A DNA stretch of 56,048 bases, from contig ONFO01000031.1 of NCBI GenBank assembly GCA_900317155.1, forward strand, positions 1-56,048, given 5' to 3'. Of this stretch, positions 25,808 to 30,755 are shown in pieces. The translations under genes and the position numbers were made by a program. The notes under the pieces are model-generated. The model was given only the letters and a program-made list of their open reading frames with translations. It was not told where the DNA came from and ran no database searches. The number at the start of each line of letters is the position of its first letter. The stretch's first letter is position 1. The DNA comes from an uncultured Bacteroidales bacterium. GTDB taxonomy: Bacteria > Bacteroidota > Bacteroidia > Bacteroidales > F082.

Positions 25808-26128
25808 ATGGTACTTAGCAAAGAAGAATTTAAGGTTTTGGCGATGCTTTATGCGGCCAACATTGATGGAAACATCCAATCGGAAGAAGTGAAGATAATG
25901 CTTCAAAAAACCGACTTCGACACTGTGGAAAAGGTTGAAAAGCTTTTCGACAAAATGAGCGACATGGAAATCCTTGAATGTATTCGGGAAAACAAGGCAT
26001 TATACGCTTCTGCCGAAGCAGACCGAATGGACTTGATCGCAGACCTTTGCGCTATTATCGAGGCTGATGAAAAATGCACGATGATGGAAGAACAGATGGT
26101 GAAAACTATTCACAGGATGCTGGAATAG
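25808..26128 (+). CDS. TerB-like helical protein
   Basis: A 106-residue all-helical cytosolic protein. The pattern FKVLAMLYAANIDGNIQSEEVKIM and DLIADLCAIIEADEKCTMMEEQMVKTI, with two acidic 'D-G-I-x-x-E-E' style turns, fits the TerB/DjlA-N fold. Such domains are linked to metal or stress sensing, but the specific role is unknown. Stands alone; AT-rich upstream region with a possible -7 element (TAAATTTG, 25747-25754). Confidence 0.65.
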   Translation: MVLSKEEFKVLAMLYAANIDGNIQSEEVKIMLQKTDFDTVEKVEKLFDKMSDMEILECIRENKALYASAEADRMDLIADLCAIIEADEKCTMMEEQMVKTIHRMLE

Positions 26129-26210: not shown

Positions 26211-27158
26211 TCAATATTCCAGCCTGATTTCGTCTACCCAAAGCACGTTGTCCAAGGCGCCAATGAAAGCCCCACTACTGCCCGAAGCAAACCACATAAT
26301 CGCATGAGTGACAGGACTATTCGGGTCGGCCCATGCTTCCTCAAGGATAATCTTTTTCTGACCTTTGCTGTTGAATGCGTACATATTCTTGTACCCTGTA
26401 ATCAAATCCATATAAGGCTTGTAATCCTTGCTTTTTCTCGCATCGCCATAGATAACCGGTATCCTGCAATCCATCACCCAACCCGAAGTTGATTTTTCAA
26501 TTTGGCACATCGCCGTACCCACACGCTTGGCATGGATGTTACCTTCAGCATCTTCCCAACGGTGTTGAAGGATGAGGATTACTTCTGCCGGGTCATACCC
26601 TTCAGTCTCGACGGCTCGGAATGTGGTGCTCCTTATCAATTTGCCCGTGTTTGGAATCTTCGCTTTATAATGAAACAATAACGCTTTAGGCCGTTTGGTG
26701 AAAGGGATGCCCCAACTCATCACGGCATAGGGATTGCTGATGGACGAAACGGGTTCCTGCATCTCTCCCCAATAAATAGAGCCTGTCGCCATCACCTTAA
26801 TATTAATGAGACCCGCCACTTTGCATGAGGCCATCTGACTGACCAATTTGGCACATCTTCCCTTCGGGCCGCGGTCAGGCATGACGTTGTTACTGGTCTT
26901 CGTCACCCCCACCACTTTGGCATAGACATTCGAGGATGACCAAATGGTGTTTTTGTATGAATAGACCAGGTTCCCTCGAATGGTATCCGTCGGACCAACC
27001 ATATACACAATCTTTTCCTTGCCGCCAATGACCTTAGATTCGGTGATATATCGCACCGCCCACTGCTCAAAGTCGCCAAAAGGAACCTTCTCATAGCGTT
27101 GGGCGGAGACCGTCAGGCAAGCCAACAGACATAATATGGTCACTTGAATTTTTGCCAT
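26211..27158 (-). CDS. Secreted PCMD-domain protein in a steroid-reduction operon
   Basis: A 315-residue protein with a signal peptide (about 1-19, ending TVSAQ) and a beta-rich body with the hallmarks of the putative carbohydrate metabolism domain (PF13201): FGDFEQW near the N-terminus, SNPYAVMSWGIPFTKRPKALLFHYKAKIP in the middle, and SSGAFIGALDNVLWVDEIRLEY at the end. It is probably surface or periplasmic, with a carbohydrate or ligand-binding fold. Start at ATG 27158; the 5' end overlaps the SDR gene by 19 bp, so it is the last gene of the operon that begins at 29958. Why a surface protein is in a reductase operon is unclear; it could bind the substrate. Confidence 0.8.
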   Translation of the reverse strand: MAKIQVTILCLLACLTVSAQRYEKVPFGDFEQWAVRYITESKVIGGKEKIVYMVGPTDTIRGNLVYSYKNTIWSSSNVYAKVVGVTKTSNNVMPDRGPKGRCAKLVSQMASCKVAGLINIKVMATGSIYWGEMQEPVSSISNPYAVMSWGIPFTKRPKALLFHYKAKIPNTGKLIRSTTFRAVETEGYDPAEVILILQHRWEDAEGNIHAKRVGTAMCQIEKSTSGWVMDCRIPVIYGDARKSKDYKPYMDLITGYKNMYAFNSKGQKKIILEEAWADPNSPVTHAIMWFASGSSGAFIGALDNVLWVDEIRLEY

Positions 27159-27955
27159 ATCTTCTTGACTAATCCGTGAGGTAATATGGCAATCAAAGGG
27201 GGAAGATAACGGTTCATTAAACCAGGCTTCACCACCCTTCTCTTTCGTATCATGCCTTTCAACGCCTTGTGCACCAACCATTGTGGCGTGCCGATCAGCC
27301 CGACTTTCACACCAAGTTTCAGCAGGTTGGGTTTCAGTCTGTAGAGTGGCGTGGCGATGGCTGCAGGACAGACCGTAGTCACACCCACACCATAGGGGCG
27401 CATCTCGAAATAGAGCGACTTGCTGAAACTCTTCAGATAAGCTTTCGTGGCTGAATAAACGGTAATGCCCGGACAAGGCAACTTGGCCGCCATCGACGAC
27501 ATATTAATAATGTATCCATAGCCGCGCTTTTTCATCTCCTCACCAAACAAGACACAAAGCTTTGTTGGAGTAAAGACATGCAATCGCATCATCGTCAAGG
27601 CCTTGGCTTCGTTTTCAGTGGTCAATTCCTCAAAGAAAAACATTCCAGCATTGTTGATAAGGATGTCGATTTGCAGGTTTTCAGATTGACAGAAAGCGAG
27701 CAATTCATCTGCTGCCGTTTCCGTCGCCAAATTCTGATAATGCGGAACAACTTGAATGTTTCGGCCTTGTTTCAGCTCCTCAGCGGCCATCCCCAGCTCT
27801 GCTTCTTGATTACTGACCAACAAAAGGTTGCATCCAATTCCTGCCAACTGACGGGCATACTCCAATCCCATGCCTGAGCTGCCGCCAGTAACTAAAGCCC
27901 AAGGCCTATACCCATGCGCTTCCTGAAACCGAATCAACCAATTTTGGATCGTCAT
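27140..27955 (-). CDS. Short-chain dehydrogenase/reductase, candidate hydroxysteroid dehydrogenase
   Basis: A 271-residue Rossmann enzyme. Cofactor motif TGGSSGMG, NNAG in DILINNAGMF, catalytic Ser in INMSSMAAK, and the YSATK active-site pair. There is no Arg directly after the GxxxGxG-associated strand that would settle NADP versus NAD. The C-terminal part is basic (KGMIRKRRVVKPGLMNRYLPP), as in 17-beta-HSD-like, membrane-associated members. It overlaps the flavin oxidoreductase by 4 bp (ATGA). Position beside a 5-alpha-reductase and an OYE enzyme suggests oxidation or reduction of a steroid 3-hydroxyl; this is an inference. Confidence 0.85.
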   Translation of the reverse strand: MTIQNWLIRFQEAHGYRPWALVTGGSSGMGLEYARQLAGIGCNLLLVSNQEAELGMAAEELKQGRNIQVVPHYQNLATETAADELLAFCQSENLQIDILINNAGMFFFEELTTENEAKALTMMRLHVFTPTKLCVLFGEEMKKRGYGYIINMSSMAAKLPCPGITVYSATKAYLKSFSKSLYFEMRPYGVGVTTVCPAAIATPLYRLKPNLLKLGVKVGLIGTPQWLVHKALKGMIRKRRVVKPGLMNRYLPPLIAILPHGLVKKIWQKFK

Positions 27956-29187
27956 CCTTTCTTTTCCGCTTTTTTGATTTCTTTTCGGATACTCTTCGGC
28001 AGTTCCTCATCGACGCAATGGTGGCACTTCATTTCCAAAGTGTACATACGCCCTATGCAATAGTTTGAGTGCTTGCATTCGCTGAGTGTCACCTCTCCAC
28101 TATGCAATTTATTGACGAAATCGGTGTCATTGATTAAGGCGCGAGCCATCTGCAGAGCCACAAACCCCGAATCCAACACTTCCTCCATTTTTTCTTTCGA
28201 AACCATACCACCCACATAAATCAACGGGAGTTTCAAGTTGGCGCGGAACACTTTGGCATCTTCCAAAAAATAGCCTTCGCTAAAAGGTACAGTAGGTATC
28301 AAAGTGCGGCCAAACAAGGCTAAACACGCCTTAAGCCACCAAAATTTCTTGGTATCCATATAAAAACGCAAGGTCTTAAGAGGCATAGCACCGCGCATCA
28401 CCTCCATCGGCGCTTTGCTGACAAAGCCTGCCGAAAGTACAAGGGCATGAACGCCCAATTTTTCCAACTCCTTGGCCACTATGATGCAATCATCCTCATC
28501 CATCCCTTTACGAAAGCCGTCGTGCATATTTACTTTGACCACCACAGCCATGTCATTGCCTGCAGTGCGCATCACCTCTTCTATGACAAGTTTCATGAAA
28601 CGCATCCTATTGTCGAGGCAACCGCCAAACTCATCATGGCGGTGGTTGGTATAAGGTGACAGAAACTGGCTGATGAGGTAACCATGTCCCGCATGGATTT
28701 CGACACAGTCAAAACCAGCCTTACGAGCCAAATTGACCGCCTTACCGAAGTCGAGGACAAGCTTGTAAATCTCAGATTTCTTGAGTTTCCGGACAAAAGT
28801 AGGTGAATATGCATTGAATCCGGCAGAAGGCCCAACTGGCATGCAGCCACAAGTGGACCGATGGGTCATGTTACCGCAGTGGCCCAACTGAATGGAAGCC
28901 TTGGCACCATAGGAGTGGACAGCATCGGTAAGTCTTTTCAATTCAGGGACGATCTCTTCACGCATCCAAAGCTGGCCATCAAAAGAAAGTCCCGACTGAC
29001 TCACTGCAGCATAGGCTACTGTCGTCATGCCTACGCCACCACGCGCGACCGCCACATGATAATTGAACAAGTCGTCGGAAGGGCGGTTACCATAAGCCAT
29101 ATTCTCAAAAGCAGCAGAGCGTATTACCCTGTTACGCAAAGTGATAGGACCAATCTCACAAGGAGTGAAAATTGTTGAGTTTTCCAT
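27952..29187 (-). CDS. Old Yellow Enzyme-type NADH:flavin oxidoreductase
   Basis: A 411-residue TIM-barrel flavoenzyme. Family features: ITLRNRVIRSAAFENMA at the N-terminus, QLGHCGN, the signature EIHAGHGYLISQFLSPYTNHRHDEFGG, and LIYVGGMVSKEKMEEVL. The C-terminal end has four Cys (C-x5-C...C-x2-C in ECKHSNYC...KCHHC), reminiscent of the iron-sulfur ligands of BaiCD/2,4-dienoyl-CoA reductases, but the downstream FAD/NAD domains of those 640-residue enzymes are missing. Candidate role: reducing a ring double bond of a 3-oxo-delta4 (or delta1/delta6) steroid. It lies 3 bp after the 5-alpha-reductase gene. Confidence 0.88.
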   Translation of the reverse strand: MENSTIFTPCEIGPITLRNRVIRSAAFENMAYGNRPSDDLFNYHVAVARGGVGMTTVAYAAVSQSGLSFDGQLWMREEIVPELKRLTDAVHSYGAKASIQLGHCGNMTHRSTCGCMPVGPSAGFNAYSPTFVRKLKKSEIYKLVLDFGKAVNLARKAGFDCVEIHAGHGYLISQFLSPYTNHRHDEFGGCLDNRMRFMKLVIEEVMRTAGNDMAVVVKVNMHDGFRKGMDEDDCIIVAKELEKLGVHALVLSAGFVSKAPMEVMRGAMPLKTLRFYMDTKKFWWLKACLALFGRTLIPTVPFSEGYFLEDAKVFRANLKLPLIYVGGMVSKEKMEEVLDSGFVALQMARALINDTDFVNKLHSGEVTLSECKHSNYCIGRMYTLEMKCHHCVDEELPKSIRKEIKKAEKKG

Positions 29188-29190
29188 AGT

Positions 29191-29958
29191 TCAATAAATA
29201 AAAGGTATGATTCTCTTTACTTTTCTCGTATCCAACTGCTCACCAAACTCATTCTGGTATTGTTTATAGATATGGTCGGCACGCGGTCCAAGGTTGGCAA
29301 ATGTCCACAAAGCGAACACCGCACCTGCCCATGACCAAGTGAGTATGGCGAAACCAATCCATTCGACAAATTCACCGAAATAATTGGCCGAAGTGACATA
29401 ACGGAACATCCCACCTTGAGGAAGGTAATGGCTGGTATCTCCCTCCTTTCGTAAATTACGGATAATGTCATCAGACTGAATATTGACATACATACCGATG
29501 ATGAATATCAAAAAGCCAATGATAAACTTCGGATTAGTCAGCCAGTCAGCCGGGTAATAGTCTTCCGGAGAGATATAAAAAATCCAACCGCCTTGCATCA
29601 AGGCATTCAGTACGTTGAATGTGACACCCATCAAAACGATGGAAAGCGGCATCATGCTATGACCACGCATACGGAACGGAAAAACAAACGAACGCTGAAT
29701 GTAGTGTAGCTCAAACAAAAACAAAAAAGCCAGGCGAACCAAATCTCCTCGGCGGTCGGAATAAAGCCACAGCAACAGCATGGTGACAAACACAGGTGAC
29801 TCCATCAGCACCCAACCGAGCTTATTGTTGACGGCTGGCCCCCACTTCTTATCGTAAAACTTACCGTAGCCTGCATCCACAAAATACAAGCTCACAAACA
29901 CTATGACGGCCACTACAGCCATGATTATCAGGAACAAATGAAAGGATTGTATCGACAT
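29191..29958 (-). CDS. Steroid 5-alpha-reductase family membrane protein
   Basis: A 255-residue integral membrane protein, the same size as animal SRD5A enzymes. Matching segments include HYIQRSFVFPFRMRG (86-100), GMYVNIQSD (155-163), YLPQGGMFRYVTSANYFGEFVEW (178-200) and the C-terminal TFANLGPRADHIYKQY...RKVKRIIPFIY. The residues that correspond, by my alignment from memory, to substrate and NADPH contacts are kept: E53, Y86, N159, D163, N192 and E196. It would reduce the delta4 bond of 3-oxosteroids to the 5-alpha form with NADPH. It is the first gene of the operon. Confidence 0.88.
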   Translation of the reverse strand: MSIQSFHLFLIIMAVVAVIVFVSLYFVDAGYGKFYDKKWGPAVNNKLGWVLMESPVFVTMLLLWLYSDRRGDLVRLAFLFLFELHYIQRSFVFPFRMRGHSMMPLSIVLMGVTFNVLNALMQGGWIFYISPEDYYPADWLTNPKFIIGFLIFIIGMYVNIQSDDIIRNLRKEGDTSHYLPQGGMFRYVTSANYFGEFVEWIGFAILTWSWAGAVFALWTFANLGPRADHIYKQYQNEFGEQLDTRKVKRIIPFIY

Positions 29959-30041
29959 TTTAGTTGAGAAATATTTTTCAAAAATAGGAAAATTTCAAGT
30001 CGCTCATCGTATTTTTCACTGAACAATCGAAAAAAATCCAT

Positions 30042-30077: not shown

Positions 30078-30755
30078 ATGAACGTAAACTGGATTCTTAT
30101 CATTGTCATCGGCTTGGTTGGACTGCTGGTGCAATGGAAATTGAAAAGCGTATTCGCCAAATACTCGAAGGTGCTTTCGCCAGGCGGACTCACGGGGGCA
30201 CAAATCGCCCAAAAGATGCTCAACGACAATGGCATCTACGATGTACAGGTCACTTGCATAAAAGGGCAATTGACCGACCATTACGACCCTACCAAGAAGA
30301 CCGTCAATTTGAGCGAGGATGTCTATCGCTCAAACAGCGTTTCAGCCGCTGCCGTCGCCGCACACGAATGTGGTCACGCCGTGCAGCATAAAGTAGGTTA
30401 CGCACCCTTGCGTCTACGCACTGCTTTGGTGCCTGCCGTCAACATCTCATCGAAACTCTCGATGTTTGTCATCATCCTTGGAATGATTTTCATCGAAGCA
30501 TTCCCTGTTCTGTTCTGGGTAGGCATCGCGATGTTTGCGATGGTGTTCCTGTTTAGTGTAGTCACCTTGCCCGTCGAATTCAATGCCTCGAAGCGAGCTT
30601 TGGCTTGGCTACAGTCGTCCAACTCACTCAGTCAAGCAGAGCTTGGACAGGCCAAAGAAGCCTTGAGTTGGGCCGCTAGCACATACGTAGTCGCAGCCTT
30701 GTCGTCATTGGTGACACTCCTATATTATATAGGAATCGGTAACAGCCGCCGCTAA
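30078..30755 (+). CDS. Membrane zinc metallopeptidase (Zn_peptidase_2, YugP-like)
   Basis: A 225-residue inner membrane protein. An N-terminal helix (4-20) is followed by the zinc-binding motif HECGH at 96-100 and three further hydrophobic segments (about 122-140, 145-163, 203-219). The third ligand is likely the Glu in LPVEFNASKRAL. Family members are neutral zinc metallopeptidases of unknown substrate. It ends 3 bp from the convergent lipoprotein gene. Confidence 0.92.
   Translation: MNVNWILIIVIGLVGLLVQWKLKSVFAKYSKVLSPGGLTGAQIAQKMLNDNGIYDVQVTCIKGQLTDHYDPTKKTVNLSEDVYRSNSVSAAAVAAHECGHAVQHKVGYAPLRLRTALVPAVNISSKLSMFVIILGMIFIEAFPVLFWVGIAMFAMVFLFSVVTLPVEFNASKRALAWLQSSNSLSQAELGQAKEALSWAASTYVVAALSSLVTLLYYIGIGNSRR

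Follow-up and report, generated by a model that had tools for sequence, protein, structure and literature searches.

What would a Bacteroidales bacterium whose relatives come largely from the ruminant stomach do with genes that resemble a bile acid cluster of colonic bacteria? The question is raised by a minus-strand operon in the window, meaning the whole 56,048-nucleotide stretch analysed here (contig ONFO01000031.1, assembly GCA_900317155.1), which is contig 48 of a 3.8 Mb Bacteroidales genome that is 96.8% complete. The operon encodes a membrane steroid 5-alpha-reductase (5AR) homologue, an Old Yellow Enzyme (OYE) flavoprotein, a short-chain dehydrogenase (SDR) and a PCMD-domain protein. 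By its gene content it is probably a ruminant-stomach version of the Bacteroidales cluster of 5AR, 5-beta-reductase and hydroxysteroid dehydrogenase (HSDH), that is, a ring-A steroid-remodelling operon, and the likely class of chemistry is the ring-A reduction of 3-oxo-delta4 steroids. An earlier, sequence-only reading had proposed reduction of 3-oxo-delta4 steroids or bile acids; the ring-A part of that proposal stands as likely, and bile acids as the natural substrate are doubtful because most relatives with a named body site are from chambers of the stomach, which lie ahead of the entry of bile.

The operon and its 5-alpha-reductase homologue

The operon is real and conserved. The sequence-only reading had described the three enzyme genes as coupled, and the coordinates agree: a 3-bp gap separates 5AR from OYE, OYE and SDR overlap by 4 bp, and a further overlap of 19 bp joins SDR to PCMD. 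Among related loci (80 of 205, chosen as the best matches; one metagenome-assembled genome, MAG, contributed two), OYE lies at most 400 bp downstream of 5AR in 79 of 80 and SDR comes next, again at no more than 400 bp, in 71 of 76 testable loci. PCMD is present in 36 of 69 testable relatives; its overlap with SDR is 19 bp in 36 of the 37 loci with a PCMD frame, counted with the start codons nearest to the window's, and in the remaining locus the two genes are 760 bp apart. Comparison with five relatives gives dN/dS values of 0.02-0.05 for both 5AR and OYE (dS being saturated in one 5AR pair), 0.06-0.07 for SDR and 0.06-0.12 for PCMD, ratios that are rough given the high dS across all four genes (0.95-2.5); such low values indicate that all four are probably in use.

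A cluster of this kind is known from other Bacteroidales, including Bacteroides dorei, which is now placed in Phocaeicola. According to passages of a review (PMC10382948), Parabacteroides merdae, Odoribacter laneus and B. dorei turn 3-oxo-delta4-lithocholic acid (3-oxo-delta4-LCA) into isoalloLCA, disruption of 5AR in P. merdae stopped the formation of alloLCA derivatives, and the genes clustered with 5AR encode a predicted 3-beta-HSDH and an NADH:flavin oxidoreductase, the latter hypothesised to be a 5-beta-reductase; passages of further reviews likewise include a 5-beta-reductase step in the route to isoalloLCA. The Phocaeicola massiliensis record OY726067.1 carries 5AR (57.6% identity), OYE (64%) and an SDR consecutively, and together with the review it bears out the link to this cluster that had been drawn from the window alone. 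The window operon and the published cluster share the bacterial order Bacteroidales, the clustering of the three enzyme types and 5AR as the enzyme for 5-alpha-reduction. They differ in that the window lineage adds PCMD, lacks a second SDR and belongs to a stomach-dominated rather than a colon group; its SDR is of a class termed A here, whereas the sole Phocaeicola locus compared has class B. BaiP and BaiJ, the 5-alpha-reductases of Firmicutes, are alike in forming allo bile acids, as stated in passages of PMC9645264.

The membrane protein scores 155.3 bits with the Pfam model Steroid_dh (cut-off 22.6), far above DUF1295 (27.3) and PEMT (23.5), and its best solved relatives are PbSRD5A (PDB 7c83, 183 bits) and human SRD5A2 (7bw1, 144 bits), so that its identification as a steroid 5-alpha-reductase homologue holds. 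A DUF1295 or isoprenylcysteine methyltransferase identity is ruled out by the model scores, which were used here rather than a joint tree; the window genome has a separate DUF1295 gene elsewhere (114 bits). Passages of PMC7815742 give the steroid-binding QEY motif of SRD5A2 as Q56, E57 and Y91 and its NADPH residues as N160, D164, R171, N193, E197, R227, H231 and Y235, and describe H231A as the sole disease-related variant tested without significant loss. The window 5AR matches PbSRD5A and SRD5A2 over nearly its whole length and keeps the catalytic E53 and Y86 as well as seven of the eight NADPH residues; it differs in having M52 for the motif Gln, I230 at the H231 equivalent, and partners in an operon.

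Met occupies this position in all 160 Bacteroidales loci checked, a number that includes the window itself, some genomes twice and 20 loci of a second clade described below, and also in Phocaeicola and Nocardia homologues; M52 as a peculiarity of the window is thereby ruled out. Judged by these alignments, Met at the Gln position is a broad alternative form and not a defect of the window gene. Plant DET2 has the same M-E pair.

The MEY triad is one ground for supposing that other hydrophobic enones, or lipids of the polyprenyl type, are what the three enzymes reduce, and that the likeness of the 5AR to steroid enzymes is confined to its fold. The structure of the art-1 very-long-chain enoyl-CoA reductase (22of) also matches it, at 36 bits, and 5ARs without a partner OYE exist, as in the second clade (0/20 with OYE). 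Characterised steroid 5-alpha-reductases match far better than 22of, however; the P. merdae disruption reported in the review above ties a Bacteroidales 5AR to alloLCA derivatives; and even the partner-less clade has an extended SDR of one family upstream in 16 of 20 loci, the members scanned matching 3Beta_HSD. A non-steroid role is, on these grounds, distinctly improbable.

Table 1. Features of the operon in the window (all on the minus strand)
Feature	Position	Strand	Remarks
5AR, membrane steroid 5-alpha-reductase homologue	29191..29958	-	255 aa, first operon gene; Steroid_dh 155 bits
OYE, single-domain Old Yellow Enzyme flavoprotein, candidate 5-beta-reductase/dehydrogenase	27952..29187	-	411 aa; Oxidored_FMN 196 bits
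SDR, class A short-chain dehydrogenase, candidate hydroxysteroid dehydrogenase	27140..27955	-	271 aa; adh_short 137 bits
PCMD-domain protein with N-terminal signal sequence (judged by eye)	26211..27158	-	315 aa; PCMD 72 bits
Candidate Bacteroidales -7 promoter box TATTTTTG	29979..29986	-	28 bp ahead of the 5AR start codon

Upstream of 5AR lies a zinc peptidase gene (30078-30755) oriented away from it, and downstream of PCMD a TerB-like gene (25808-26128) is found on the opposite strand; the unit is therefore taken as four genes. TAnnTTTG, the Bacteroidales -7 consensus, occurs within 150 bp upstream of 5AR in 49 of 79 sequences, whereas mononucleotide shuffles gave a mean of 9.0, and it stands 25-30 bp before the start codon in 35 of the 47 members of the near clade (the window and L013-L059). 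Two of these, L013 and L015, come from a single MAG (CAMJRR01), in which they are different loci on separate contigs; this reflects either a duplication or mixed strains.

The flavoprotein and the dehydrogenases

The OYE is a single-domain protein. The BaiCD model (NF041087), which comprises 642 positions with C-terminal FAD/NAD domains, gives it 195 bits against a cut-off of 825, with the best stretch at residues 5-259, and BaiCD is ruled out as its identity; among 198 genomes of the family that includes Heminiphilus, no protein exceeded the cut-off for true BaiCD. The FAD/NAD tail is absent, as the sequence-only reading had remarked, and as a novelty the absence is ruled out since it is general to this OYE family: every complete OYE frame in L001-L092 (89 in all) measures 405-422 aa, and single-domain homologues of 388-423 aa are found in Nocardia, Tsukamurella, Rhodococcus, Burkholderia and Sphingobium.

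Near its C-terminus the protein has the motif C371-x-H373-S-N375-x-C377-x10-C388, in which C371, H373, N375, C377 and C388 do not vary in any of the 79 distinct OYE orthologues. The OYEs of Nocardia, Tsukamurella, Burkholderia and Sphingobium (those compared being plasmid-borne) have the full C-x2-C-N-x-C...C pattern and that of Rhodococcus has Asn at the second Cys position, which in the Bacteroidales clade is Ser (73) or Val (6). A four-Cys iron-sulfur (Fe-S) motif is known in trimethylamine dehydrogenase and dienoyl-CoA reductase. The window OYE may have an Fe-S site built from three Cys, perhaps together with His, and supplied by an external donor.

A hand alignment on the catalytic Tyr places G169 at N166 of the clostridial 5-beta-reductase and Q174 at S171, a pair of residues that agrees with neither of the clades, one for steroid hormones and one for bile acids, in the paper on that enzyme (PMC12238238), where Bacteroidota, Bacteroidetes, Parabacteroides and Odoribacter go unmentioned. 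Compared with BaiCD and the clostridial enzyme ci2350, the window OYE shares the OYE barrel, over which the BaiCD model matches best; it differs from them in lacking FAD/NAD domains, in its altered Cys motif, in its partner genes and, by the same hand alignment, in the residues beside the catalytic Tyr. These residues and the low BaiCD score are what would be expected if the OYE were not a 5-beta-reductase and reduced another bond (e.g., delta6 or delta1), the operon then giving a saturated 5-alpha product without isomerisation of the A/B-ring junction. This is unlikely when set against the hypothesis in PMC10382948 that the clustered flavin oxidoreductase is a 5-beta-reductase, and against the 5-beta-reductase step toward isoalloLCA in the passages of the other reviews.

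The SDR retains TGxxxGxG, S154, Y167 and K171 in 73 of 73 relatives. The catalytic tetrad of classical SDRs includes an Asn; at that position the class A SDR has H126, in 72 of the 73. No hydroxysteroid dehydrogenase is named among the best 60 of its 539 PDB matches. Class A includes the window SDR and one from Parabacteroides distasonis (NZ_OY725754.1), 48% identical and located beside an OYE of 59% identity. Class B, at 23-24% identity to the window SDR, includes that of Phocaeicola and the second SDR of Heminiphilus (L161/L090).

Across 102 loci the arrangements included 5AR-OYE-A-PCMD (26), 5AR-OYE-A-B (21), 5AR-OYE-A (21), 5AR-OYE-A-PCMD-B (10) and 5AR-OYE-B (3), a tally that counts loci cut by contig ends too and enters L201 and L202 by SDR class alone. 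At E 1e-20 the class B SDR has no match in the window genome; matches exist in 4 of 36 genus members, and in two of these four the contig with the match carries a 5AR as well. Loss of the class B SDR from a five-gene form may have given the window form, and it is conceivable, as an alternative origin, that this SDR never entered the window lineage.

PCMD does follow SDR, as had been noted, and its newness does not stand: with more than half of the testable relatives carrying it, PCMD is a feature of the clade, and the idea that it is unique to the window locus is ruled out. Its Pfam score was obtained on a longer frame (26211-27476), and its weak PDB match is a putative glycoside hydrolase (3hbz, E 2e-4). 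Alignments A1 and A2 took 45 and 35 of the available orthologues.

The OYE-SDR pair of P. distasonis (L202:6001-8015) stands downstream of an RND efflux pump and has no 5AR, for which no match was found in 13.2 kb, nor in the record at E 1e-10; this suggests that the pair can work alone. The Phocaeicola record OY726067.1 (L201) is 140 kb long and labelled a plasmid, and by eye has isocitrate-dehydrogenase-like and citrate-synthase-like genes by the operon; it is probably a chromosome fragment. Record JAMPGZ010000044.1 (L087) is titled Lachnospiraceae and carries a Bacteroidales-type operon in a genome of the family that includes Heminiphilus; its title looks wrong.

Substrate and habitat

The reactions, their direction and their stereochemistry can be proposed as follows. 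The OYE would shift hydrogen on or off the C4-C5 bond, linking 5-beta-3-ketosteroids with 3-oxo-delta4 steroids; the membrane 5AR with NADPH would reduce the delta4 bond to the flat 5-alpha form; and the SDR would interconvert the 3-ketone and the 3-hydroxyl (assumed 3-beta). The net effect would be conversion of bent 3-oxo-5-beta or 3-oxo-delta4 steroids to flat 5-alpha, 3-hydroxy steroids. PCMD would be secreted or surface-held and may, as a guess, aid substrate binding or uptake. Bile acids would be accepted by these enzymes without being their natural substrate.

The habitat of the relatives bears on the substrate. 5AR is found in 21 of 36 genomes (the window genome and 35 of the same genus), and the closest named relatives are MAGs, many titled as ruminant. 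A body site is given in 24 of 80 record titles; by eye, 19 of these name the rumen, reticulum, omasum or abomasum and the other five the duodenum, cecum (2), colon and horse feces, a count uncorrected for the yield of Bacteroidales MAGs per gut region. Records with RGIG names presumably belong to the ruminant survey used here for comparison. That survey, as given in passages of PMC8199421, covered ten regions; stomach chambers account for 148 of its 370 samples.

The excess of 19/24 over 148/370 speaks for a natural substrate among the plant- or feed-derived or host-hormone delta4-3-ketosteroids of the forestomach, with rumen bile acid conversion as a side activity. So do the counts for the bile salt hydrolase (BSH) family, which has no match in the window genome and a full-length one in 1 of the 21 same-genus 5AR carriers (with a short partial match in 5 of 21). 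Alistipes, Muribaculum, Heminiphilus and Phocaeicola, gut groups that meet bile, also carry the operon core, which counts against it, as do the five relatives from other sites, the MAG recovery per gut region that was not normalised, and the travel of stomach cells on into the intestine. A non-bile natural substrate is on balance a good possibility, a little short of an even chance.

Rumen bile acid chemistry has been measured. When bile acids are given to rumen fermentations or animals, allocholic acid (alloCA), 3-beta-cholic acid (3-beta-CA), isoLCA, isohyodeoxycholic acid (isoHDCA) and 3-oxo forms rise, according to passages of PMC11193847, which describe the reactions as 5-alpha- and 3-beta-epimerisation and propose L-ribulose-5-phosphate 3-epimerase for the 3-beta step; '5AR' does not appear in these passages, and the three that contain 'reductase' concern baiN. 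No report of a rumen steroid 5-alpha-reductase or of rumen phytosterol reduction was recognised by title among the open-licence papers searched. The OYE and 5AR would supply the 5-beta to 5-alpha change and the SDR that at the 3-position. That forestomach Bacteroidales use the operon on a non-bile steroid and that the same enzymes are the missing agents of rumen 5-alpha- and 3-beta-epimerisation is a tentative proposal, with the odds somewhat against it.

Several observations weigh against reading the operon as a stomach version of the 5AR/5-beta-reductase/HSDH cluster, beginning with the Met in place of the motif Gln. The OYE is without the second Cys of the four-Cys motif that is present in four of five outside relatives; the window SDR is just 24% identical to the Phocaeicola SDR and of an unrelated class; and 6 of 20 5ARs spread over the first of the two 5AR groups described below have no adjoining OYE. 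No activity data for the window clade were found, and the BSH family (PF02275) has no match in the window genome. According to the same passages of PMC11193847, bile acids are not normally in the rumen and the likely agents of the conversions are Clostridiales and others, Bacteroidales going unmentioned there.

Were the reading of a steroid-remodelling stomach operon true, it would provide candidate genes for the measured formation of allocholic acid and 3-beta epimers in rumen contents, which passages of PMC11193847 leave unassigned to a 5-alpha enzyme. It raises the question whether bile acids were the original target of the Bacteroidales 'bile acid' cluster, and either answer bears on the fate of feed steroids, phytosterols and bile acid additives in cattle, sheep and goats. 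What surprises in the finding is the stomach setting, the system itself being of an already known kind.

Two groups of Bacteroidales 5AR homologues

At E 0.001 or better, 112 of 392 genomes of the order match the window 5AR, and the matches split into a group of at least 47% identity, a group of 35-45%, and weak or partial hits. A tree of 100 rows (L002-L012 omitted; every fifth of L013-L059 and every second of L060-L092 taken; identical sequences merged) puts 78 first-group rows on one branch with support of 100/99, among them six that have no OYE next to 5AR, and 20 second-group rows together with support of 98/81. The tree label 'operon' was given to every row outside two no-OYE lists, with adjacency confirmed for most; for L120, so labelled, no OYE was seen in 1.5 kb.

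An OYE lies at most 400 bp downstream of 5AR in 0 of 20 second-group loci, in 14 of 20 spread over the first group and in 27 of 28 of a further set. A separate survey of neighbouring genes, the one behind the upstream counts below, dropped 2 of 40 loci (L152, L157), and for L150 and L159 its choice of open reading frame was wrong (an antisense frame over OYE). Among 23 loci fetched by OYE or BaiCD matches (L178-L200), 14 have 5AR-OYE-SDR, and no 5AR is present in the short stretch read for the other 9.

The second group (L122-L141) has an extended SDR of one family directly upstream of 5AR in 16 of 20 loci, the contig of L132 ending close upstream of the gene. Four of these SDRs were scanned and match Pfam Epimerase and 3Beta_HSD; for two of the extended SDRs a further scan gave matches to HpnA and to SdmB, a sterol demethylase protein, that stay below the cut-off in both cases. 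A steroid-type partner may therefore recur with 5AR even where OYE is missing, and the second clade could possibly represent another Bacteroidales gene set, so far unstudied, of steroid or hopanoid type. At L133 (4761-5738, 1657-3918) the second-clade 5AR is also near an MMPL transporter with a sterol-sensing-domain match.

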